Positions 8,437-64,000 of a stretch of DNA of 64,000 nucleotides are shown one piece after another (the stretch's first letter is position 1; each line of letters opens with the position of its first letter). The stretch lies in the NCBI RefSeq assembly GCF_015207755.1, contig NZ_JADEWH010000012.1, positions 62,001 through 126,000 on the forward strand, given 5' to 3'. Origin of the DNA: Nodularia sp. LEGE 06071 (GTDB lineage Bacteria; Cyanobacteriota; Cyanobacteriia; Cyanobacteriales; Nostocaceae). Both the position numbers and the translations under genes were made by a program. The notes below the pieces were generated by a model. It ran no database searches and was not told the origin of the DNA. It saw only the letters and a program-made list of their open reading frames with translations.

Positions 8437-9039
8437 CTAATAAAACATTAAGTGACGTAATATATATGCTATGACGCTAACAGCGCACACTACAGCTAGT
8501 TGACCGGGTAGCGCAAACCAAGAGTATCTGAGAATTGCTTGCATTAGAGCCAGATTCTCCGTACCTTTCCACTGAAAAAGATAACTGATGATCAAATAAG
8601 TCACACCGCAGAGGTGGACAGTTAACAAGCCACTTATACAACTAAAAGCTAGGGTTTCCAATCTAGGTCTAGCTTTAAAAGCCAAAGACCCACAAATCCA
8701 CGCTCCAGGAATAAAGCCTAGCAGATAGCCAAACTGAGATAGCTTGACATAACCAATACCGCCACCATCAGCAAATACAGGTAACAAGGTTAAACCCATA
8801 ACTAAATAGGCGATTTGCGATAGCGCACCAGCATTTTTCCCTCCTAAACAACCTACTAACAACACTGCACCAACTTGACAAGTGACACCCAGAGAAAAAG
8901 TCTGAATTCCGTGCTTACTCCAACTCCAAGGCCAGGCGATACCATAGGCTTCTAGGAAAGTCCCGCCCATTGTCAGGAGTAAGCCAACCATAGACCATAG
9001 TAATTGAACAGTTCCCACATTTCCAACGCTTCCAGCCAT
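8437..9039 (-). CDS. bioY: Biotin transporter BioY
   Basis: Substrate-binding membrane component (S component) of an ECF-type biotin importer. 200 aa from the ATG at 9039; the longer frame to 9060 begins with TTG. About six hydrophobic helices are present, with family features such as GLTLLPVFADGGGIGYV and FGYLLGFIPGAWICG. No bioM/N (ATPase/T component) genes are adjacent; cyanobacteria typically use BioY with shared or no energising module. The upstream region is the 1.1 kb gap with no recognisable biotin operator. Confidence 0.9.
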   Translation of the reverse strand: MAGSVGNVGTVQLLWSMVGLLLTMGGTFLEAYGIAWPWSWSKHGIQTFSLGVTCQVGAVLLVGCLGGKNAGALSQIAYLVMGLTLLPVFADGGGIGYVKLSQFGYLLGFIPGAWICGSLAFKARPRLETLAFSCISGLLTVHLCGVTYLIISYLFQWKGTENLALMQAILRYSWFALPGQLAVVCAVSVIAYILRHLMFY

Positions 9040-51060: not shown

Positions 51061-53871
51061 CTAATTGCCTGAAACCCAGTAATTTTTCCCAGCATCAGCA
51101 ATAAATCGGGATTTCTGGGTTGGACTCTGGGGTAAACCACGGCCAGAATTGCCAGCATTGACAGCTTGCCACCAAGGAGATTTCATGGTAGTTGTGGGGC
51201 GAATTAAAGGCTGTTGCTTGGTAGCCATATATAGCAGGGATGACAAAACCAGACTATTGGTGCTACTGCTAAACCCCAGGGCAGTTTTACCAGTTTTCTC
51301 ATCAAAGCCCTCATAAAACCCCAGCAGAGGACGATATAAGTCGGTAGTGGCTTTGAATAATTCTTGGGCATAATTATCTTCTGGCAGCATGGCATAATAG
51401 GCGAATGCTACGGCTGTACTCACAAATCGCTTGTCTGCTAAAGGTTGTCCATCATCACCTAAAGTTAACCAAGGTTGGTTTTGACCAGTAATTGTACTGT
51501 GAACGATGTATGGTTGCTGTTCGATTAAAGTCGTACCGGCCGCTGTCAGGGTTTTAGTCCGACGATAGCGTTCGCTTTGGGCTTGGAAGATGTTGGTAAA
51601 TAGCGATCGCATTTGCGGATCTAGACCAAATTCTAAGCCATACAATAAGAAGGGATTGCTGACTGTATATTGATTTACCTGGGAATTGCTATCTGTTCTC
51701 ACACGTTGAATTGGTACTGGGACACCTTCAACTTGAGCAGTTTTATATTCACCCCCCACAGCCGAACCATCCACATCAAACCCCCACAATTGAAAACCCC
51801 TTGCAGCATATTCTTCATAGCCCAAGCTGGTTTCAGGTTGCACACGGGGAAGCGATCGCCCTTTTTGGTCTTTGACTACAGTTGCACTGGCCAGTTTACC
51901 GTTATTCACCACCCGCAAATAAGACCAATCCAGGGCAATTTGATCAACAGCTCTGGTGTACTCTGGATGACAGGTTTTTAAGTTATGCAATGCTGCTAAG
52001 ATTCTGCCGACATCTAAAGCCGACCAGCCACTACCTTCTGGTGTGGGATTGCCACCGTAATCTATGGCTTGTAGGGTGCGGGTATCGTAACCCCGATGAG
52101 GTAATTCTCCCATAAATAAAGGCATTTGAGTTAAAGCTGCCAACAATTGCCGGGTGCGCTGGTCAAATTCCTTGGCAGAAATTACATCAAGTTTCCGGGC
52201 GGCGTGTAGGGCGGTGAGATAATTGCCCAATCCCCACATAGTTGCACCTTTAATATCTTGGCGATCGCTGACCAATCCAGTTGTAGATTGATAATTGGCT
52301 GTGAAATATGCCCAAGCAGCTTCCGCATAACGCCGTTGCACACCTGTGAGGGGTTGAGTGATGGCTGGACAAGATGATGGCTGGGGTTGTCCTACAGGCG
52401 GGATGGGTGCAACTGTGACTGCGACAGGACTTGCATCTGGTGTCACCGAAGAGGTTGTTGGAGGAGGTGTAACCGCTGGTGTCGGGGGAGTTTCTGGAGT
52501 CTTAACTGCTGGAGTTGGGGGAGTTGCTGGAGTTGTAACTGATGGAGTTGATGATGGTTGAAAATTCGCAAAAGAGACATTACTGCCCCCAATTAAAGGC
52601 AGATTTCCCCTAGCTTTGTAGTATAAAATCTCCATCATTAGCCCATTAGTATTACCTGTGAGGGCTTTATTTGGCTGTTGGGTTTCCTCATAAATTCCCG
52701 CATAGAAACCACCACCATCAGGACTGCGTAAATCCTTAGCGGCTTCAAAAAGTTTTTGAGCATAAGCATTATTCGGAAACAGATAACGCCAGCCAAATGC
52801 TGCTTTAGAGCTAAAGGTTCTAAACTGGGGAAACAGCTTATTTTCTTCGGTAATAGTTGCCCAGGCAACACCATTAGAATAAACAGTATTGTAGAGAAAA
52901 TAAGGAGGTTGATCAATGTTGTCTTCCGAAACAGCAGTCAACTGTCCAGTAGCGTCAAAACGCCGTTTTTGTGTTTCTAAAACTCTGGTGGCAAAATCTT
53001 CTAAATATCCGACTAAACCAAATTCAATTCCATCTAAAATATAAGATTCACTCACTACATAATTGTTCGCATTAGTAGTTTGAAAATCACGCGTATCCAC
53101 GGGAATTTGTACACCATTAATATCCACAAATTTAAATGGTTCTAAAGCTACTGCTTTCGGTGCTTTAAATCCCCAAAGTTCATATCCCCTGGCAGCATAT
53201 TCTTCATAACCTAGTCGTCCTTCTTGGACTAACAAAGTTTTCTGATCGGGGAGAACTGTAGCGCCAAAAATTTGATCATCTTTAAGCGATCGCCCAATTT
53301 GCCATTTAGTCACAATCCCCTGAAGCCAATCATTATACTGCGGGTGACAGGTACGGATGACGTGAAAGGCCGCTAGTAACCGCCCAATATCTAAAGCAGA
53401 CCAGCCAATTCCTTTTGCTACGGGGTTATTGCCGTAATCAACCATTTCGCCGGTGGCGGTGTTGTAAACTTTATTCGGTAAAGCGTCCTCAAATAGCTTC
53501 AGGTTAATCAGGGAGGTGAGAAATGGATTCAGGCGCGAGTCGAAGTCAGACTGATCAATTAAATTTAACCAGCGTGCGGCGTTTAAGGCCATGAGGTAAT
53601 TACCCATGTCCCAGAGTGTTCCGGAGGGATAGCCGCCGGTGGAATTGGTAAATCCGGTTTTTGGTTGGTAGTTGTTGACAAAATATTGCCAGGCGGCGCT
53701 GGCGTAGGTCTGTTCCTCTGGGGTGAGGGGATCGGTGATGGTGCTACAGCTGTTGGTGTTGGGGGTTTGAGCTATGCTGGTGTTGGGGATGTAAAGTAAA
53801 AATTGCAGCAAGGTTCCACAGAGGAATAATGCAATTAGTGGGAAGATTTTTTGGGGAAGATGTTTGAGCAT
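51061..53871 (-). CDS. Exported protein with two DUF3131 domains
   Basis: 936 aa. N-terminal signal peptide or anchor (IFPLIALFLCGTLLQFLLYI), then two homologous DUF3131 domains (about 40-430 and 495-905) joined by a Pro/Thr/Val-rich linker (about 432-490). Each repeat carries the same landmarks: AWQYFVNNYQPKTGFTNSTG or AWAYFTANYQSTTGLVSDRQ, GYPSGTLWDMGNYL, IGWSALDIGRLLAAFH, and LGYEEYAARGYELWGF. The helical pattern with Trp/Asp-rich motifs recalls (alpha/alpha)6 carbohydrate-active enzymes, but no activity is established. It is followed by a single-domain paralogue and sits in a locus with a cellulose-synthase-like GT2, so a role in polysaccharide processing is inferred. Confidence 0.88.
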   Translation of the reverse strand: MLKHLPQKIFPLIALFLCGTLLQFLLYIPNTSIAQTPNTNSCSTITDPLTPEEQTYASAAWQYFVNNYQPKTGFTNSTGGYPSGTLWDMGNYLMALNAARWLNLIDQSDFDSRLNPFLTSLINLKLFEDALPNKVYNTATGEMVDYGNNPVAKGIGWSALDIGRLLAAFHVIRTCHPQYNDWLQGIVTKWQIGRSLKDDQIFGATVLPDQKTLLVQEGRLGYEEYAARGYELWGFKAPKAVALEPFKFVDINGVQIPVDTRDFQTTNANNYVVSESYILDGIEFGLVGYLEDFATRVLETQKRRFDATGQLTAVSEDNIDQPPYFLYNTVYSNGVAWATITEENKLFPQFRTFSSKAAFGWRYLFPNNAYAQKLFEAAKDLRSPDGGGFYAGIYEETQQPNKALTGNTNGLMMEILYYKARGNLPLIGGSNVSFANFQPSSTPSVTTPATPPTPAVKTPETPPTPAVTPPPTTSSVTPDASPVAVTVAPIPPVGQPQPSSCPAITQPLTGVQRRYAEAAWAYFTANYQSTTGLVSDRQDIKGATMWGLGNYLTALHAARKLDVISAKEFDQRTRQLLAALTQMPLFMGELPHRGYDTRTLQAIDYGGNPTPEGSGWSALDVGRILAALHNLKTCHPEYTRAVDQIALDWSYLRVVNNGKLASATVVKDQKGRSLPRVQPETSLGYEEYAARGFQLWGFDVDGSAVGGEYKTAQVEGVPVPIQRVRTDSNSQVNQYTVSNPFLLYGLEFGLDPQMRSLFTNIFQAQSERYRRTKTLTAAGTTLIEQQPYIVHSTITGQNQPWLTLGDDGQPLADKRFVSTAVAFAYYAMLPEDNYAQELFKATTDLYRPLLGFYEGFDEKTGKTALGFSSSTNSLVLSSLLYMATKQQPLIRPTTTMKSPWWQAVNAGNSGRGLPQSPTQKSRFIADAGKNYWVSGN

Positions 53872-53925
53872 GGTTTGATGATCTCACGCAGAGTCGCAGA
53901 GTCGCAGAGAAGAATGCCTGAGAAT

Positions 53926-55383
53926 TTATAAGCCAGCCCAGACTGTGAGGGGTTTTCCGACTTGTTTATATAGTAGGCTGGAGAGAATTACGCCGTTGTT
54001 GTTGGCGGTGAGGCTGGTGTTGGGTTCGCCCAGAGATTCGTAGTAGCCGTTGTACCAGCCGTTTTCGGATTGCAGATTTGTTTGGACAAAATCCGAGAGT
54101 TTACGGGTGTAGTCGGTGTTATATAGTACGTTCCAGCCAATGGCGGCTTTGCTACTGACAAATCGTAAGTTCTGATGTTGTTCGCGGGTGTCTGTAATCG
54201 CTACCCAAGGTTTTCCATTCACAAATAAGGTGTTGTAAACGAAGTAGGGGGGACGGTCTAGGTTGTCTTCTGTGACGGCTGTTAATTGTCCGGTGCTTCG
54301 ATAACGGGCTTCTTGGGCTGCTAATATGCGATCGGCGAAAACTTTCGGTAAAGATTGAAATCCGGTTTCAATGCCGTCTAAGATAAATGGTTCGCTGAGG
54401 ACGTAGTTATTAGCGCCTGATGTGTCATGATCTCGTTTATCGTAGGGTATGCCTTGGCCGTAAAGATTGGCATAGCCTGTATTGGCTTGATATTCTAGGG
54501 CGGCTTTGACATTTAAGCCCCAGAGTTTAAGACCGTAGGCGGCATAGTTTCCGTAGCCTAAGCGTCCTTCTTGGTTATATTGTTCTTTCCCTTCGACGAC
54601 GCTGGTACCATACATTTCACCTTTACTGGTGAGGCGTTTAACTTGCCAAGATTCCCAAACTTTTTCGGTTGGCGATCGCCACTGGGGGTATTTTGTCCCG
54701 ACTATTTTTAACCAAAGTGCCATTCGTCCTAAATCGATGGCTGACCAGCCAATTTCTTCGCGTTTTTCTAGTTGACCGTAGTTAACTGGTAGGAGAGTTT
54801 TGGAGTTATAGACTTTGTTGGGGAGTTCTTTTTTGTATAAAGGCATAGTTGCTAATGTCTGCAACATTGTCCCCATCTTTTCATCAAATTCTGACGCAGA
54901 GACAATCTTCAGTTCCTTGGCGCTGACCAAAGCTGCCATTCCAGCTGCTTGATCCCATAAAGTTACAGAAGGAAAGCCATCAACGGAATTGACTAAACCT
55001 GTTTCATTGTTCCAGTTCCGCTCAAAATATGACCAAGCTTGACGGGCGATCGCCATTTCTGCTGGGGTGAGTTTTCCGACATTCGCCGCAACATAGGGTA
55101 CAAGAGAGATTTGAACTTCTTTGGGGTTAACGGGATCGCCTGGTAAAACTAAAGATTCCGCGTCAAGTCTCGCCAGTTCTTTGGGATCAACTCCTGATTT
55201 TTTCACTGAAGCCATCGGTTGTGTGCTAGATGTTTCTGGTGTGTTTACAGAAGCCTTCTGAGTCCGAATTAGATACCCAGATAAGGAATTAAGCATAGAA
55301 ATGGCGATCGCCGCTGTGACTACTCCTCCGACAGCAGCCAGTATAGATAACTTGTTTGGTGGTGGTTCAAAATCAGAGGTCAT
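53926..55383 (-). CDS. Membrane-anchored DUF3131 protein
   Basis: 485 aa: a short cytoplasmic N-terminus, one membrane helix (about 12-33), a low-complexity stretch, then one DUF3131 domain (about 100-480) with AWSYFERNWNNETGLVNSVD, ASLV/IGWSAIDLGRMALWL and LGYGNYAAYGLKLWGL. Closest to the first domain of the 936-aa neighbour, from which it is separated by 54 bp containing a GCAGAGTCGCAGAG repeat. Probably periplasmic and cotranscribed with the neighbour. Confidence 0.88.
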   Translation of the reverse strand: MTSDFEPPPNKLSILAAVGGVVTAAIAISMLNSLSGYLIRTQKASVNTPETSSTQPMASVKKSGVDPKELARLDAESLVLPGDPVNPKEVQISLVPYVAANVGKLTPAEMAIARQAWSYFERNWNNETGLVNSVDGFPSVTLWDQAAGMAALVSAKELKIVSASEFDEKMGTMLQTLATMPLYKKELPNKVYNSKTLLPVNYGQLEKREEIGWSAIDLGRMALWLKIVGTKYPQWRSPTEKVWESWQVKRLTSKGEMYGTSVVEGKEQYNQEGRLGYGNYAAYGLKLWGLNVKAALEYQANTGYANLYGQGIPYDKRDHDTSGANNYVLSEPFILDGIETGFQSLPKVFADRILAAQEARYRSTGQLTAVTEDNLDRPPYFVYNTLFVNGKPWVAITDTREQHQNLRFVSSKAAIGWNVLYNTDYTRKLSDFVQTNLQSENGWYNGYYESLGEPNTSLTANNNGVILSSLLYKQVGKPLTVWAGL

Positions 55384-55510
55384 TTTTGTATAAGTCCTTG
55401 TGGTGTTACTTAATATACAGTTTTACAGATAATAACAATTTCATCCTGATCTACAAGCAAATATAAAGATATACAAACTGCTGTAGATATTTTTTCAACG
55501 CCCAGGTTGC

Positions 55511-56794
55511 TTAAAACTTGATTCGGAGTTGTCCGGAGAGGCCGTTGTTATTGTAAGCGCTTTCGCCGGTGTCTTGATTGCGAACATTACTAAATATATA
55601 GCCCAGGTCTACTTCTGCATTGGGTGCAAGTTTGGCTGTACAGCGAGTTTGATAGCTATTGGCGTTGTCAAAATTTCCATTGAGTCGCTGTTGTCCGACG
55701 GTGACAGCAAAGCGACAGCGCCAGCCATCAAATAAATTTCCTTCCCAACCCAACTCAGCATTATAAACCAGAAAATCTGGCGGAGAAAAATAGCCACTCT
55801 CTCCTTCAACATCACTTGTGTAGTTCCAAGAAAACAAGTTAGCAGCCACAGAAAATTGACCTAATTTCCGTTCTAATCTGCTAAAAGACTGTTGTTCAGA
55901 ATTACCATCGCTATAACTACCCCAACGATATAAAGCAAACAAGCTAGTATCTTGGTCAATCTGCCAAAATAAATTTGGCCCAAATCGCCAAGCTGTAATT
56001 TGATTATCTAAAGTTTGAGCATTGAATTTATAAAGCCCTTGTTCGATGTTTCCTGAAATAGCCACAAGAGATGTTAATTTACCATTTGGTGCAACTTTAG
56101 CGGGAGAAATGGCAGCTTCGACTTTAGCATTAAAATTCATCGCTGTGGGTAGACGATTAAAAGTATCTATTCCTGTGGCTGTGACTAGAGTCACTTCTCC
56201 AATTTTTCCTTCCCAGCCCACTTGTAAGGGAATATTGATAATTGTCTCAATACCCGATTTTTTAAAACTATTGAAACCTGTTTTAAACCTGATTAAATTG
56301 CCATTTTCTAGTCGAAATTGCGCTGTGGGTTCAATAATTTGATTGATTTGGCCAAAATTATCACTATCATTCCGAAAATCTGTTTGGATATTTTCTAAAA
56401 CAGCAAATGGTGTTAAAGGTTCAGTCGATGTTGGTGGTGGAGTTATTTTGGGTGGTGGTGGTGGTGGTAATTTGAGACCAGGATTAAAATTTTCTGGAGC
56501 AGTCAGTAAAATCGGGTCTGGGGTTTGGGGAATTAGATCAGATTTTGCCAGTTCGGTAACTGAAGTAATTCGCTCATTCAAGTCTGCTATTTCATTATTT
56601 GAATCCTCAATCAAAAATTCTGTGCCAGGATGATGATGATTATGGGAGTGGTTTTCTTCCAGGCTAATAACCGAAATAACTGGTTCCGCCTTTGCTTGAT
56701 TCATCCATAACATTCCCAAACTAACACTATAAATGATTATCCGTAAATTACCTGCGTATTTATAACTAAGCACCTGATGAAAAATATACGTCAT
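55511..56794 (-). CDS. Putative outer-membrane beta-barrel protein
   Basis: 427 aa. Signal peptide ending NQAKA/EP; a His-rich stretch (HSHNHHHPG) and a Pro-rich linker (LKLPPPPPPKITPPP, about 113-127); then about 290 residues of alternating hydrophobic/polar beta-strand-like sequence ending in LRIKF with a terminal Phe, the usual outer-membrane barrel signature. No family recognised. First gene of the minus-strand group with the DUF3131 proteins, divergent from the GT2; a polysaccharide exit channel or porin is possible. Confidence 0.65.
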   Translation of the reverse strand: MTYIFHQVLSYKYAGNLRIIIYSVSLGMLWMNQAKAEPVISVISLEENHSHNHHHPGTEFLIEDSNNEIADLNERITSVTELAKSDLIPQTPDPILLTAPENFNPGLKLPPPPPPKITPPPTSTEPLTPFAVLENIQTDFRNDSDNFGQINQIIEPTAQFRLENGNLIRFKTGFNSFKKSGIETIINIPLQVGWEGKIGEVTLVTATGIDTFNRLPTAMNFNAKVEAAISPAKVAPNGKLTSLVAISGNIEQGLYKFNAQTLDNQITAWRFGPNLFWQIDQDTSLFALYRWGSYSDGNSEQQSFSRLERKLGQFSVAANLFSWNYTSDVEGESGYFSPPDFLVYNAELGWEGNLFDGWRCRFAVTVGQQRLNGNFDNANSYQTRCTAKLAPNAEVDLGYIFSNVRNQDTGESAYNNNGLSGQLRIKF

Positions 56795-57134
56795 TAATTA
56801 GTGTACCTCTGATCCAGGTAAAAATTGATCACAAGATATTGCAAATTTTCAGTAGTGAACTATACTGGGCAAACGAGTGTATTTGAGGTGATTTGAGAAT
56901 CTGGATTGAATCTCATAACTACTCAGTCACCCTTGGTCTGTTCTCCAGAGGCAATATTCAGAACTTAACTGATCAAAGTCGCGGCTACTTTTCCAGAAGA
57001 TAGGAAAATCGCCAATTGCGAATTAATGCCTCAGTAAATCTGAATACTAATACTTTTATTTTCCAAAGTTTACTTTACCAAACCAAGCACGAAACAGACA
57101 ACCATTAATTTTTGAATTTTCTTTCAGGTGCAAT
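56795..57134. promoter_or_regulatory. Divergent region between barrel protein and GT2 genes
   Basis: 340 bp of AT-rich sequence between two divergent genes of the putative polysaccharide locus; no ORF, no clear hexamers, no strong hairpin. An AGGTG ribosome site precedes the GT2 ATG. Confidence 0.3.
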
Positions 57135-59132
57135 ATGGCTTCAGTCTCTATTCTTAATGATGCAATAAATTTTTCTGGTAATAGCCGTTCCAGCCTCAAA
57201 AAAAGAACCCTGCTGTTTCGCTATTTGGCAGAAATAAATTTAATTTTTGGTGCTTGGTATTTGCATTGGCGGATTGGTAACTCTATCAACTTTGATGCAT
57301 TGTGGCTTTCGATTCCCTTATTATTAGCAGAAATTTACAGTTACTGTGGTGGAGTCATGTTTGTCGTTGGACTTTGGCGACCCCTCGTCAGACAAATTAA
57401 ATCCCTCGACCAGCTAACACCAAGCATACCCACCGCTGATTGGCCTACTGTAGATGTATTTGTCACCTGCTACAACGAACCGCCCGAAATTGTCGAAGCA
57501 ACCGCCAGAGATGCTTTAGCAATGGATTACCCCACCATCAAGTTACGCGTTTATATCCTGGATGATGGTAATTCCGAGCAAATGCGACGGATGTCAGAAA
57601 GATTATGTATTGAAGATTTACAATCGCCATTATTACAACAAGAAGCTAACCGAATTGATGCAGAACGTTCGACTCTGGTAGAGCGTCTTGAACAATTAAA
57701 TAATTTACAACCAGATTTACAAGCGGCTGAAGAATGGTTACAAAACTATTCTGACACAGCAGATCATCCGACAAAACTTTTAAATAATCTCCGGCAATTT
57801 CTTTTATGGTTAAATATTTCTAGTCAAACTAATAGTAATTCCCAGAATACTATACAAGAACGCCTAACTACAGAACGAGAATTATTAGAAGCAGCCATTT
57901 ACCAAAAAGAATTAGAACTAGTTGAACTCGCACGTTTGCGTTATATTGCTCGACCCAAACAACCAGGAATAGCACATCACGCCAAAGCAGGTAATCTCAA
58001 TTACGCAATTTTTTCTGGCGAAACTGTCGGTGATTTTATCCTGACTTTAGATGCAGATCATATTCCTAAACCCCAATTTCTCAAGCGAGTTTTGCCGTAT
58101 TTTTTAACTTACAATTTCTTCTCAGGAAAGTACGAATCAAACAAAATTGCCTTTGTCCAGACACCCCAAGATTTTTATAATATTCCCTCTGGCGATCCCT
58201 TTGGTCATCGCGCCAGTTTATTTTATGGCCCTTTGCAACAGGGTAAAGATGGGATGAATGCGGCTTTCTACACAGGTACAAATGCCGTATTGAGAAGAGA
58301 AGCATTAATTAGTGTAGGGCTACAATATTTTGCCGATGAATACGCCAAAGATGAAAAGCGTTTAGATGAATTTGAATTAATTGGCGGTGTATCCAGCAAC
58401 AGTATTACTGAAGATATGAATACAGCTATGCGCTTACACGGTGCTGGCTGGAAATCGGTTTATCACAATGAATTGTTAGCGGAAGGATTAGCACCTGATG
58501 ATTTGAGTTCTACATTGAAACAGCGATTACGTTGGGCGCAAGGAACTATACAAGTTTTAGTCAGAGAAAATCCCTTAACAAAAGCCGGACTCAGCTTTTG
58601 GCAAAAGTTGCAATATTTCAAAACCATGTATAGCTATTTTTCAGGTTTTGCGACTGTGATATTTATCTTGTGTCCGATCATCTATTTTTTCACAGGAATT
58701 ATCCCAGTGAAAACATACGGACCTGATTTTGCTTTACACTTCTTCCCAGCTTTTGTGATTAATCGCCTTACCTTTCTGGCTGCGACTTGGGGGATTCCCG
58801 CTAGAGAAATATGGCGTTCCGAACAATATGCGATCGCCTTATTTCCTTTATTAATGCAAGCAGTGTGGAGTGTCTTTTCTGGACAGCCAATCAAATTCCA
58901 AGTTACACCCAAGCAGCGCCAATCAGGAATATATCTCCGGCTGATTTGGCCGCAGTTAGTTGTCTTTAGCCTAACTATTTTAGGCATGATCTGGAGCCTG
59001 TTTCGGTTTGCGACCGGGACTTTAGATACTCCTGGGATTTATTTACTCAATGGTGCTTGGGCTATTTACAACCTGTCATTAATTTGGGCAATCATTAATG
59101 CCGCTATTTGGCAACCAAAGTCTAATTCGTAA
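57135..59132 (+). CDS. Cellulose-synthase-like family 2 glycosyltransferase
   Basis: 665 aa processive GT2 of the inner membrane. Two N-terminal helices (about 28-80), catalytic motifs DDG (143-145), DAD (306-308), TED (425-427) and QRLRW (463-467), then several C-terminal helices (about 490-655). Unlike bacterial BcsA it has no C-terminal PilZ domain. It also carries about 105 extra, mostly helical residues (about 158-267) between DDG and YIARPK, where BcsA has a short link. It probably polymerises and exports a beta-glucan-like chain; the product is unknown. Divergent from the barrel/DUF3131 group and followed by partner-switching genes. Confidence 0.9.
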   Translation: MASVSILNDAINFSGNSRSSLKKRTLLFRYLAEINLIFGAWYLHWRIGNSINFDALWLSIPLLLAEIYSYCGGVMFVVGLWRPLVRQIKSLDQLTPSIPTADWPTVDVFVTCYNEPPEIVEATARDALAMDYPTIKLRVYILDDGNSEQMRRMSERLCIEDLQSPLLQQEANRIDAERSTLVERLEQLNNLQPDLQAAEEWLQNYSDTADHPTKLLNNLRQFLLWLNISSQTNSNSQNTIQERLTTERELLEAAIYQKELELVELARLRYIARPKQPGIAHHAKAGNLNYAIFSGETVGDFILTLDADHIPKPQFLKRVLPYFLTYNFFSGKYESNKIAFVQTPQDFYNIPSGDPFGHRASLFYGPLQQGKDGMNAAFYTGTNAVLRREALISVGLQYFADEYAKDEKRLDEFELIGGVSSNSITEDMNTAMRLHGAGWKSVYHNELLAEGLAPDDLSSTLKQRLRWAQGTIQVLVRENPLTKAGLSFWQKLQYFKTMYSYFSGFATVIFILCPIIYFFTGIIPVKTYGPDFALHFFPAFVINRLTFLAATWGIPAREIWRSEQYAIALFPLLMQAVWSVFSGQPIKFQVTPKQRQSGIYLRLIWPQLVVFSLTILGMIWSLFRFATGTLDTPGIYLLNGAWAIYNLSLIWAIINAAIWQPKSNS

Positions 59133-59304: not shown

Positions 59305-59631
59305 ATGAATCCCACAGTCAAGATACTTGAACCTTCAGGCATTTTAAATGCAGTTAAAGGTAATGAACTCCGCCGGGAAATTACTAATCTTACCTCCACT
59401 GGCGCTGATATTGTGTTAATTGATTTGAAAGATGTCAATTTTATTGATAGTTCGGGGTTAGGTGCTTTAGTTGCGTCTATGCAAGCTGTAAAACAAGTTA
59501 ATGGCAAACTCTTTGTCTGCTCTGTTAATGCTCAAGTGAGGATGATTTTTGAATTGACAAAAATGGATAGAATTTTACAAATTTTCCCTACTAGAGATGA
59601 ATTTAATAATCAAGTCTTAGCAACACAATAA
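59305..59631 (+). CDS. STAS-domain anti-sigma-factor antagonist
   Basis: 108 aa single STAS domain; the phosphorylatable Ser is in the motif FIDSSGLGALVASM. Homologous in kind to SpoIIAA/RsbV. It forms a module with the PP2C phosphatase and the HATPase kinase next door. It follows the GT2 by 172 bp on the same strand. Target unknown; in cyanobacteria such switches control motility and exopolysaccharide. Confidence 0.93.
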   Translation: MNPTVKILEPSGILNAVKGNELRREITNLTSTGADIVLIDLKDVNFIDSSGLGALVASMQAVKQVNGKLFVCSVNAQVRMIFELTKMDRILQIFPTRDEFNNQVLATQ

Positions 59632-59806: not shown

Positions 59807-60967
59807 CTAACTAAAGGTAACTTTCAGTAGAGATAAATCATCATCAAAATCAGTACAAGCGCTGAGACATTTAATCTGCGCCAATACTTCCTGAAGATTA
59901 CAACTATTTGCCTGACTACAGTGGATTAATACGTCCAGAAAAGCATGAAGACCCCAAATTTTACCATCTGGTTTTAGAACTTCATAAGCACCATCACTAA
60001 AGAGGTATAAAGTACTGTTTGCCGCAATTTCTAAAGTATCTACTTGAAAATTAATATCAGGGAGAAAACCAATTGGCAAATCTAAAGAATTTAGCTGTTT
60101 GATATCTGTAGCATCTTTACCCAGGAGCATCGCTGGTGGATGTCCAGCATTAGCATAAATTAATCGCTGTTCTAGACGATTGTATACTCCATACAAAATT
60201 GTGAAATACTTGTTACCATGACTACTCATTGGAAAACTATAATTAAGCGCTTTTAAAACTTCGCCGGGATGAGAAAAATTAGTATTGGGTAGAGACTGCG
60301 ATCGCAAGACATTCAACACAGACACAGACAGTAGGGCTGAACCCACCCCATGTCCAGAAACATCTAAGAGATAAATAGCCAAATTATCATCATCAATCCA
60401 GTAATAGTCAAAGCAATCTCCGCCTAACTGTGCTGAAGGAACAAACAAAGCTTCCGTAGTTACAGCACCAAGAAGCGGGGATGGTAAAAGCGATCGCACA
60501 TACTCCGCAGCTTCAGCCAATTCTGCTTCTAAATTTTGGTTTAGCTTCTCTAAAGCTAGCTGTTTATTTTTCAAATCCTGATTGAGTTGATGTAATCTTA
60601 ACCCGGCTCTAACCCGCGCCTTCAATTCATTCATTTCAATCGGTTTAGAAACAAACTCATCCGCGCCAGCATCTAATCCTTTAACTCGCTCCCCCTCTTC
60701 CCCTGGTGCTGCTCCCTTAGCAGTCAGCAAAATAAAAAAAGTTGTCGCCAAATTGGGATCTTCCTTCACTTGACGACACACCTCTAAGCCATCTATTTCT
60801 GACATTACCCAATCACAGATAATCAAAGCTGGATGTAATATCTTCGCCTGTGTAATTCCTTCTTCTCCATTGCTGGCTACAGTGGTATCGTACCCCTGAT
60901 TTTGCAATGTTCTTTTCAGTGCTGCGCGCACTATCGGATCATCATCAATAATCAGGATCTTAAACAT
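59807..60967 (-). CDS. Response regulator with PP2C (SpoIIE/RsbU) phosphatase domain
   Basis: 386 aa from the ATG at 60967 (MFKILIIDDD); the longer frame starts with TTG. Receiver domain about 1-120 with phosphoacceptor Asp in LIICDWVMSEIDG, a coiled-coil linker (about 130-160), then a PP2C-type phosphatase with metal-binding LGGDCFDYYWID, LDVSGHGVGSALLS and FSDGAYEV. It should dephosphorylate the STAS protein when its receiver is phosphorylated, releasing the switch. Flanked by its STAS and kinase partners in opposite orientation. Confidence 0.94.
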   Translation of the reverse strand: MFKILIIDDDPIVRAALKRTLQNQGYDTTVASNGEEGITQAKILHPALIICDWVMSEIDGLEVCRQVKEDPNLATTFFILLTAKGAAPGEEGERVKGLDAGADEFVSKPIEMNELKARVRAGLRLHQLNQDLKNKQLALEKLNQNLEAELAEAAEYVRSLLPSPLLGAVTTEALFVPSAQLGGDCFDYYWIDDDNLAIYLLDVSGHGVGSALLSVSVLNVLRSQSLPNTNFSHPGEVLKALNYSFPMSSHGNKYFTILYGVYNRLEQRLIYANAGHPPAMLLGKDATDIKQLNSLDLPIGFLPDINFQVDTLEIAANSTLYLFSDGAYEVLKPDGKIWGLHAFLDVLIHCSQANSCNLQEVLAQIKCLSACTDFDDDLSLLKVTFS

Positions 60968-61144
60968 AATTTTCAACTAATACTAAATTTTGACCAACGC
61001 GCATAAAATAAATATTTCCCTGTTATTTGGCGATTTTTTTGTTCAAATTCATTTTATTTTCATAAAACATTGTTATAACTAATTTATCAAGTAAAATTTG
61101 CTATTATTTTCCCTCCACAAATTCAAATATTTGACAGGTAAAGA

Positions 61145-61561
61145 ATGAATAAAAAAATTCATCTAAAAGTGAAGACAGACCTTAATGATACAGAGAAAGT
61201 TTTATCATGGTTTGAGCAAATTAATCAACCTCCTCTTCCTGATCAAAATGTCTGGTGGAAATGTCAAACTTTACTGATTGAAGGTTTTACTAATATTGTA
61301 GAACACGCACACAAAAATTTACCTGTAGAAATTCCCATTGAGTTGGAAGTTGTGCGGTTAAGTGAGCATATAGAGATTCGCATCTGGTCTGTTGGTGAAG
61401 CATTTGACTTGGAACAGCAATTACAAATTACACCTGAACTCACAGATAATTTTCAAGACAGAGGTCGCGGTCTCAAAATCATTTCTTCAATAGCAGAAGA
61501 ATTCAGTTATCTTCCTACAGATGATCAGCGTAATTGTCTATTTTTTAAAATCAAATATTAA
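61145..61561 (+). CDS. Anti-sigma-type serine kinase, HATPase domain
   Basis: 138 aa single HATPase_c_2 domain like RsbW/SpoIIAB: N-box EGFTNIVEHAHKN and G-box DRGRGLKIIS. Expected to phosphorylate the STAS protein and to sequester a target. Divergent from the phosphatase gene. Together the three genes are a complete partner-switching set. Confidence 0.9.
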   Translation: MNKKIHLKVKTDLNDTEKVLSWFEQINQPPLPDQNVWWKCQTLLIEGFTNIVEHAHKNLPVEIPIELEVVRLSEHIEIRIWSVGEAFDLEQQLQITPELTDNFQDRGRGLKIISSIAEEFSYLPTDDQRNCLFFKIKY

Positions 61562-61686: not shown

Positions 61687-64000
61687 TTATTTAGCTTGAT
61701 TATTAGGGTCATTTGCTGCTAAAAAAGCTTTAATTTCTTGTAGAAAGCCTTCTAATTCTACCATAATTTCAGTTGCACCGATGCACTCTTGTTTATGACT
61801 CATTTGTTCTAGCTTTTCTACAGCTTGCTGCATAGATATAGCTCCTACATTGGCGCTTGCACCTTTGAGATGATGTGCTTCTCGCGCTAGTTGCTGAAAA
61901 TTATTGGCAGCGATGGCAGCTTTGGTTGCTTCTAAATGTAACTGGCTATCTTCAACTAATATTTGTAATAATTCCAATTCAAATTCGGTGTTATTTTCCG
62001 AAAGCTGATGTAAATGTTCCCAATCAATTGCTAGTTCAAAATCAACATTTGTATTCAAAATTACTTGGCTCCAATGCTCTAGTATGGCTCCTAATTTGTC
62101 TTTTTTTACTGGTTTACTCAAATAATCATCCATGCCAGCATCTAGACAGTTTTGTTGGTCTTCTTTCATGGCATTAGCTGTCATGGCAATGATCACGGGT
62201 TGCGGATGAAGACGACGACGAATTTCTCTAGTAGTTTCTAAACCATCTAAAATTGGCATTTGGCAATCCATGAGAATTAAGTCATAGGCAATTGTTTCTA
62301 ATAGCTGTAAAACTTCTTGACCATTGTCTGCAACATCAGCTGCATAACCTAAATTTTGCAGTTGCTTCAGGGCAACTTTTTGATTGACTAAATTATCTTC
62401 GGCTACCAAAATTTTCAATTTGGATTTAGTCAAGCCAGTTTTAGGAATAATTGGTTGCTCAATTTTGGGAGATGTTGGTCGGCTTTCCAAGATATTAATG
62501 ATTGTATCGAATAGCCGAGATGGTTTTACAGGTTTGACTAAATAACTAGCAAATCCTATATTTAAGGCTTTTTGAACTTCATCTCTTTGATTAGTAGAGG
62601 TCAACATAATGATGGGAATATCCGCAATTAAAGGATTTGCTTTGATTTGTGTTCCCAAAGTTAAACCATCTACTTCCGGCATTTGCATATCAATCAAAGC
62701 CACATCATAAAGCATTCCTTTTTCAGCAGCAGTTTGTAAAGCATTCAGGGCTTGGGCTGCACTGTCCGCCGCATCTACTTGCATTCCCCAACGGGTAGCT
62801 TGATGATAGATAATTTTCCGGTTGGTAGCATTATCATCTACTACTAACAAGCGCCGATGGGTGAGAATTTCCCAGTCCTGTACAGGGGAAACAGGCTGAG
62901 ACTGCTGATTAAAAGCTAGTTCAAACCAAAATTGAGATCCTTTTCCTAGCTGACTGTTTACCCCAATTTTTCCCCCCATCAAACTAACTAACTGGTGACA
63001 AATAGCTAGTCCTAAACCTGTACCACCATACTTGCGAGTAATGGAAGCATCCACTTGGGTGAATGGCTGAAATAGTTTGCTTTGGTCTTCAGAGGAAATA
63101 CCGTTACCTGTATCTGTGATGGAAAAATTGATGCAGGCTGTATTTGGGGTTTGATTTCGCAGTTCGGCTCGGACGACAATTTCTCCTCTGCTGGTGAATT
63201 TGATGGCGTTACCAACCAGATTCATCAAAATTTGGCGCAGCCGACTAGCATCACCTTGGAGATAAACCGGAACGTTGCGATGAATCAAGCCGGCAATTTC
63301 TAATCCCTGCTTATGGGCTTGGGGTGCTAATAATTCTAAAACTTCTTCTACACAACTAGATAAGTCAAAATCTAAAGTTTCCAGAATCATTTCTCCGGCT
63401 TCTAGTTTTGACAAATCCAAAATCTCATTAATTAAGCATAAAAGCGCATCGCCACTAATGCGAATTGTCTCGGCAAAATCACGCTGTTCTGGATTCAAAT
63501 CAGTTTCTAATAATAAGCCAGTCATTCCCAAAACCGCATTCATGGGTGTGCGAATTTCATGACTCATATTGGCTAAGAAAGCACTTTTGGCTTGAGAAGC
63601 TAATTCTGCTTGTTCGCGGGCAATTTCTAGTTCTTGTCGTTGGCGTGTTTCTAGTTCCAGTAAATTGGCTTGAGCTAAAGCAATCCCGATTTGATCAGCA
63701 AGCGATCGCAAAAGTTCAATTTCCCAATTATTCCATTGCCGGGGATGATTGCACTGATGGGTAATTAGCAATCCCCAAAGTTTATGTTGCCGGAAAATAG
63801 GAATCACCAGATTAGCTTTGACCTGAAATTGTTCCAGTAATTGTTTATGGCAAGGCTCGATGTCAGATTGTGCTAGATCATGAATAACGCCTATTTTACC
63901 TTGATAGTATTTCTGGAGATAATTATCTGTGAAACAAGGTTCCATAATGTTTTGACCCATAACCACAGGTAATTCAGGAATTGCAGCTTCTTTTAGTACT
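61687..64000 (-). CDS. Hybrid sensor histidine kinase, GAF-HK-REC-REC-Hpt, cut by window edge
   Basis: The frame stays open to the window end, so the N-terminus is missing; at least 771 aa are present. Order: C-terminal part of a GAF domain ([19 protein letters not shown]); a coiled coil; HisKA with His in [16 protein letters not shown]; HATPase ([25 protein letters not shown]); receiver 1 ([13 protein letters not shown], Asp in [12 protein letters not shown]); receiver 2 ([13 protein letters not shown], Asp in [12 protein letters not shown]); and a C-terminal Hpt with His in [16 protein letters not shown] complete phosphorelay in one chain. The GAF pattern resembles phytochrome-type chromophore or ligand domains, which cannot be confirmed here. 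It could feed the REC-PP2C protein nearby (inference). Confidence 0.92.

Follow-up and report, generated by a model that had tools for sequence, protein, structure and literature searches.

A locus in a 64-kb stretch of Nodularia sp. LEGE 06071 (the window; assembly GCF_015207755.1, contig NZ_JADEWH010000012.1, positions 62,001-126,000 of the forward strand) probably encodes a synthase-dependent system that secretes a cellulose-like beta-glucan, with remodelling by DUF3131 proteins, export through a barrel and control by a partner switch. As suggested by its family and motifs, the GT2 glycosyltransferase would polymerise sugar, probably from UDP-glucose, and would pass the chain through the inner membrane. 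Once in the periplasm, this chain may be a substrate of the DUF3131 proteins, as transglycosidases or hydrolases with an (alpha/alpha)6 fold from the GH189/GH144 superfamily, and the barrel, assigned by its modelled fold, would carry the product across the outer membrane. Control of expression or assembly would fall to the STAS/SpoIIE/HATPase partner switch and response regulators, whose linkage to these genes was observed and which may stand in for the usual input by PilZ and cyclic di-GMP (c-di-GMP). The polymer, its linkage, the enzyme activity, export and wiring are what we infer from these features.

Among 146 cyanobacterial genomes (the window's included), full-length DUF3131 was found in six, a window-type GT2 in seven and the barrel in six, and the same six genomes held all three, bearing out the co-occurrence that an initial annotation of this DNA had proposed to look for across cyanobacteria. 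DUF3131 fragments only were found in two more genomes, G010 and G115, and the seventh genome with the GT2 was G029. Given the match scores and the conservation in other genomes, the features of the locus are unlikely to have arisen by chance. The initial annotation had also placed four genes here with a divergent GT2 lacking PilZ, and the open reading frame (ORF) list and Pfam agreed: the GT2 is divergent from the barrel and both DUF3131 genes, and Pfam gave no match on it to PilZ, the c-di-GMP receptor. The conserved unit extends rightward past the GT2 to position 63966, and no related genes were seen when the ORF list of the 16 kb of genome beyond the window was read by eye. The right half of the locus is inverted relative to the left half, as it is in loci L040, L045 and L085. 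The features, in window coordinates, are as follows.

51061..53871, - strand: double-DUF3131 protein, 936 amino acids, exported, signal peptide by eye, two DUF3131 domains (ORF list, Pfam)
53926..55383, - strand: single-DUF3131 protein, 485 amino acids, N-terminal hydrophobic anchor by eye, modelled as GH189-like (alpha/alpha)6
55511..56794, - strand: predicted stand-alone outer-membrane barrel of PgaA/BcsC/PelB type, 427 amino acids, no TPR part (Pfam, model)
~56905..57113, + strand: fourth-DUF3131 remnant (C-terminal part, internal stop), directly upstream of the GT2 (tblastn)
57135..59132, + strand: cellulose-synthase-like GT2, 665 amino acids, no PilZ, PCR-type insert, alr3757-like
59305..59631, + strand: STAS-domain anti-sigma-factor antagonist, counterpart of alr3758 by position
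59807..60976, - strand: response regulator fused to SpoIIE phosphatase (Pfam)
61145..61561, + strand: HATPase_c_2 protein of anti-sigma-factor/kinase type (Pfam)
61687..63966, - strand: hybrid histidine kinase with GAF, HisKA, HATPase, two receivers and Hpt

The synthase and its link to alr3757

The 665-residue protein matched Cellulose_synt and other GT2 families in Pfam. It scored 328 bits against CelA and 22 bits against MdoH/OpgH, remained below the cut-off of the BcsA model TIGR03030 (328 versus 699.1 bits), and was by far the best CelA-like protein of the genome, the next place scoring 69.5 bits. The BcsA counterpart that had been proposed by position was supported at the sequence level.

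The window GT2 carried the TED and QRLRW motifs and a PCR-type insert between LDDG and DADH. In an alignment of sequences scoring above 700 bits and of 560-850 residues, which dropped, for example, L088, L097, L106 and L108, the D, D, ED and Q of the motifs were invariant in all 69 sequences, including 30 non-cyanobacterial ones, plasmid loci among them. QRLRW was retained in 39 of 39 cyanobacterial sequences, and the LDDG-DADH spacing was 152-295 residues in these 39 and 45 in the 30 others. In the non-cyanobacterial GT2 proteins (L089-L119, L033-L036), the motif ended in K and Y in 30 of 30, as QRFKY (F in 29). This ending in place of QxxRW is unusual for a processive beta-glucan synthase, and the product may differ.

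In the available text of a review, alr3757 of Anabaena is a 'CesA with PCR domain' and is discussed as a cellulose synthase; the window GT2 fits this type, lacking PilZ and having an insert between U1 and U2. Accessible portions of the Anabaena literature state that alr3757 precedes alr3758, an anti-sigma-factor antagonist, that HetR binds upstream of alr3758, and that the alr3758 promoter is raised in heterocysts. The published 21-nucleotide forward primer for this promoter matched exactly inside the GT2 of L064, upstream of the L064 STAS gene; the published reverse primer had no match in L064 at up to three mismatches. Since the forward primer matched the L064 GT2, itself 78% identical to that of the window, the window GT2 and STAS genes are most likely orthologs of alr3757 and alr3758, an assignment made through this primer match and not by comparison with the alr3757 sequence itself. 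A HetR-like site with two mismatches (L064:16263-16277) was seen in the 3' end of the L064 GT2, past the primer site and ahead of the STAS gene. For the window STAS gene, an upstream HetR site was considered and rejected, as none was there; a scan of the 64 kb at up to three mismatches gave three matches, with 2.55 expected. The window's genome carries HetR.

DUF3131 proteins and the predicted outer-membrane barrel

The three DUF3131 domains first annotated were recovered by Pfam: PF11329 matched two stretches of the 936-residue protein (1043 bits in total) and one of the 485-residue protein (509 bits), with a cut-off of 20.3. It was the sole Pfam match of these proteins at E values up to 5, GH8 not being among the matches. 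The initial annotation had named structure prediction against (alpha/alpha)6 hydrolases as a check, and the predicted model places DUF3131 in the SGL superfamily, with an (alpha/alpha)6 fold that is carbohydrate-active. Of the two outcomes that the initial annotation had listed as counting against its idea, an absence of co-occurrence in other genomes and a DUF3131 without such a fold, neither was observed. The nearest folds were those of GH189/GH144/GH162-type beta-1,2-glucan enzymes. DUF3131 as a relative of the GH8 enzyme BcsZ, its supposed counterpart, was rejected, as GH189 was far nearer by modelled fold.

Residue E192 (numbering of the modelled 405-residue domain) aligned, near the end of a profile alignment, with the Glu of the GH189-like L121 that matches the acid/base E1356 of TiCGS; the pairing recurred in one forced alignment mode, and the default and global modes did not reach or align it. 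Glu occupied this position in 76 of 76 DUF3131 sequences, and the presence of the GH189 acid/base in DUF3131 is indicated by sequence. Because the second half of DUF3131 could not be aligned with GH189 by profile, the matches to the nucleophile and to E1400 depend on inspection by eye and on spacing: E292, Glu in 70 of 76, fits the nucleophile E1442 by motif spacing alone, and the His pair of GH189 appeared by eye to be replaced by Asn or Thr. Domain 1 of the 936-residue protein retains the Glu residues of interest, and domain 2 has Thr at the proposed nucleophile position. The activity would be that of a transglycosidase or hydrolase. No published work on DUF3131 function and few mentions of the family were found in the text available to a search that omitted most subscription journals.

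The window's genome held no further full DUF3131 gene, only the fragment of a fourth copy. By tblastn, the intact fourth copy of L085 matched positions 56905-57113 (56% over 63 residues, E 2e-14), and this gene was intact beside the GT2 in L032, L045, L048, L085 and others. Genus relatives (L124-L126) showed more decay of the locus.

The initial annotation had called the 427-residue protein barrel-like, a call that was right and that needed a structure model, as the Pfam match to BCSC_C was below cut-off (19.7 versus 23.5 bits). The predicted structure had 16 strands by count and a fold of PgaA/BcsC/PelB type; as modelled, the protein is a PgaA/BcsC/PelB-like outer-membrane barrel, in agreement with the proposed BcsC counterpart.

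A true cyanobacterial cellulose system (type IV/Xcs), in which DUF3131 would serve in the place of BcsZ as an endoglucanase on beta-1,4-glucan, is unlikely. It would be favored by an alr3757-like GT2, discussed as cellulose synthase in the available text, by QRLRW in the 39 cyanobacterial sequences and by the weak BCSC_C match of the barrel; the fold relation of DUF3131 is to beta-1,2-glucan enzymes.

Distribution of the locus and loss of its modules

A single scan of named genomes, using a DUF3131 alignment of four rows, confirmed 233 stretches; the best 80 loci were kept, a top-scoring set and no random sample, with 49 loci from cyanobacteria and 31 others (by title mostly Gamma-, Beta- and Alphaproteobacteria, and one Hydrogenimonas). 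The usual cyanobacterial order was barrel, single DUF3131, double DUF3131, (GH26-like), (fourth DUF3131), GT2, (PIG-L), STAS, SpoIIE, HATPase, hybrid kinase; many loci were cut or were without some of these genes, and the hybrid kinase was linked in part of the loci only. Genes were tallied at thresholds of 300 bits for GT2, 150 for SpoIIE, 35 for STAS, 200 for the barrel, 35 for the exported protein Hyp300 and 100 for OpgC, a looser 30-bit tally giving somewhat higher SpoIIE counts. Among the well-covered loci (at least 20 kb; 29 cyanobacterial and 26 other), GT2 was present in 26 of 29 and 26 of 26, and STAS and SpoIIE accompanied it in 22 of 29 and 24 of 26, respectively. The core set was also found in vibrios, Shewanella, enterobacterial plasmids and rhodobacters, and the locus as a cyanobacterial speciality was rejected. 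In Paracoccus, Pantoea and a rhodobacterium, this core was present on annotated plasmids, accompanied by OpgC or a different acyltransferase and in some by GH16 or GH2.

A catabolic locus, in which the barrel would import oligosaccharides, DUF3131 would degrade environmental glucans and the GT2 would be a chance neighbor, is very improbable. Characterised SGL-clan enzymes are mostly hydrolases according to the available text, some of the loci contain GH16, GH2 or GH26-like genes, and lone DUF3131 genes exist; however, the GT2 shared the locus at the above frequencies across phyla, and the barrel model matched exporters better than uptake porins.

A GH26-like exported protein (L032:23696-24751, below the Pfam cut-off) had relatives in 9 of the 49 loci from cyanobacteria, where its gene usually separated the DUF3131 genes from the GT2. 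Hyp300, of about 300 residues (L035:6334-7230), occurred in 27 of the 31 loci from outside the cyanobacteria; its two halves resemble each other, two Cys are conserved, and the C-terminal residue is aromatic in 17 of 20. The L035 member had no Pfam family, and Hyp300 is perhaps a new outer-membrane barrel. Kinship between Hyp300 and the window barrel was rejected, as hhalign showed no relation. A search of PHROGs found nothing. PF10091 was found in 2 of 16 genomes reached through the loci.

In a search of relatives, 14 of 40 genomes had a DUF3131 match, and among these the exopolysaccharide-type barrel tracked the double DUF3131. Both were present in G000, G005, G007, G011, G013, G014, G019 and G025 (the double DUF3131 of G011 was cut by a contig end; the genes of G019 were broken, its barrel split over two contigs), and neither double DUF3131 nor full barrel was present in G002-G004, G010 and G021, except that 27 residues of the end of the barrel are left in G004 and some 50 of its residues in G003. 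G034 lacked the barrel and had part of a double DUF3131, located at a contig end. In G007 the barrel and GT2 were 1.7 Mb apart and both retained.

Several observations weigh against a secretion system for a cellulose-like glucan. No TPR scaffold was matched by Pfam in the barrel or its neighbors, the rest of the genome lying outside that search. The relation to GH189 suggests beta-1,2-glucan, whereas the GT2 family suggests beta-1,4. The barrel occurred in just 16 of the 29 well-covered cyanobacterial loci, and the window-type barrel in none of the 26 well-covered others or of all 31; the GT2 was missing from three of the 29 (L042, L052, L074). G029 had GT2, STAS and SpoIIE with no DUF3131 or barrel in the genome. 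In G003 and G004, of the same genus, the GT2, partner switch and single DUF3131 were kept, the barrel and double DUF3131 were lost or remnants, and the GT2 was constrained, with a ratio of nonsynonymous to synonymous substitution rates (dN/dS) of 0.12 between them and of 0.15 and 0.18 against the window. G002 and G021 had a lone DUF3131 without GT2. Synthesis and export thus look like separable modules, given the constrained GT2 that G003 and G004 keep after losing the barrel and double DUF3131, and the lone DUF3131 left in G002 and G021. The GT2 of G029 (L130, G029:C33) was about 784 residues long and lay at 8583 of the locus, with STAS and SpoIIE.

A role like that of osmoregulated periplasmic glucans retains some probability because of the GH189 relation and the OpgC genes of some loci, and we regard it as rather unlikely. 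DUF3131 would then cyclise or shorten a GT2 glucan that is mostly periplasmic, with acylation by OpgC where present and the barrel as an accessory. Among the 49 cyanobacterial loci, 2 (L074, L078) had OpgC-like genes, as did 7 of the 31 others; L132 had such a gene as well, and Pfam confirmed OpgC_C in L034, L035 and L132. Lineages that keep the GT2 and a DUF3131 after barrel loss favor this role, as does a link made in the available text of a review, which connects a PCR-type CesA of Synechococcus 7002 with a layer lying between the outer membrane and the peptidoglycan. However, an exopolysaccharide-type barrel tracks the double DUF3131, the window's own genome has no OpgC, and the GT2 resembles CelA far more than MdoH/OpgH. 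In the cyanobacterial L074, L078 and L132, the OpgC-type acyltransferase was seen to adjoin an extra DUF3131 near the main locus, together with an extra barrel in L078.

Known systems and significance

The Bcs system (BcsA/BcsC/BcsZ) shares with the window a BcsA-like GT2, a barrel of BcsC fold and a periplasmic (alpha/alpha)6 enzyme, but the window differs in having no PilZ, no TPR part on the barrel, an enzyme of GH189/GH144 type instead of GH8, and partner-switch genes. Unlike in the export of poly-N-acetylglucosamine (PgaA) or Pel (PelB), the cyanobacterial barrel here stands alone; the Paracoccus locus L034 encodes a TPR protein with a barrel of PgaA type. GH189 shares the fold and the aligned acid/base Glu with DUF3131, and possibly the nucleophile, but DUF3131 proteins are separate exported proteins, the GT2 is of CelA type, and the His pair differs. 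BMEI1837 of Brucella is, we presume, the cyclic glucan synthase of that organism.

In the accessible literature, DUF3131 mentions for BMEI1837 and for Shewanella swp_2164-2170 stand in tables only. Cyanobacterial CesA proteins with a PCR domain (alr3757, Npun_F1469, SYNPCC7002_A2118) are alike in lacking PilZ and having the U1-U2 insert, and alr3757 has a STAS gene next door as in the window; the available text of the review names no DUF3131, barrel or partner switch as parts. Klebsiella block 3b, as given in the accessible portion of a population-genomics paper, comprises a cellulose synthase, three DUF3131, OpgC, a hybrid kinase and an anti-sigma factor with its antagonist; it resembles the window in GT2, three DUF3131 and regulators, but it has OpgC, no barrel is named, and it is listed as an accessory block with no mechanism. 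A Burkholderia paper on SpoIIE and cellulose was rejected as the same system, as its available text concerns c-di-GMP and a bcsB gene. No literature combining three of anti-sigma factor antagonist, SpoIIE, exopolysaccharide and cellulose synthase was found by a search that had most subscription journals outside it. The initial annotation had known of no described system of this composition; the GT2 type is in print and the Klebsiella locus is mentioned in passing in the text available, but the core gene set is hardly described, because DUF3131 mentions are sparse and without function and the combined search just described found no papers.

The locus may represent a class spanning phyla, a tentative proposal that we hold to be somewhat doubtful. 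This class would combine a cellulose-synthase-type GT2 with retaining, GH189-like transglycosidases as separate proteins for periplasmic remodelling or cyclisation of the chain, a TPR-less export module that can be lost (barrel and double DUF3131 in cyanobacteria), and a sigma-factor partner switch replacing c-di-GMP.

According to the available text of a 2025 review, the export of cellulose-like glucans in cyanobacteria is poorly defined. For a type of synthase described there as a lone gene, the locus offers linked candidates for the exporter, periplasmic enzymes and regulators, and a role is proposed for the uncharacterised family DUF3131. The synthase is also tied to a gene bound by HetR and upregulated in heterocysts, in a strain amenable to genetics. 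As the core is shared with vibrios, Shewanella, enterobacterial plasmids and rhodobacters, one experiment would inform many bacteria.
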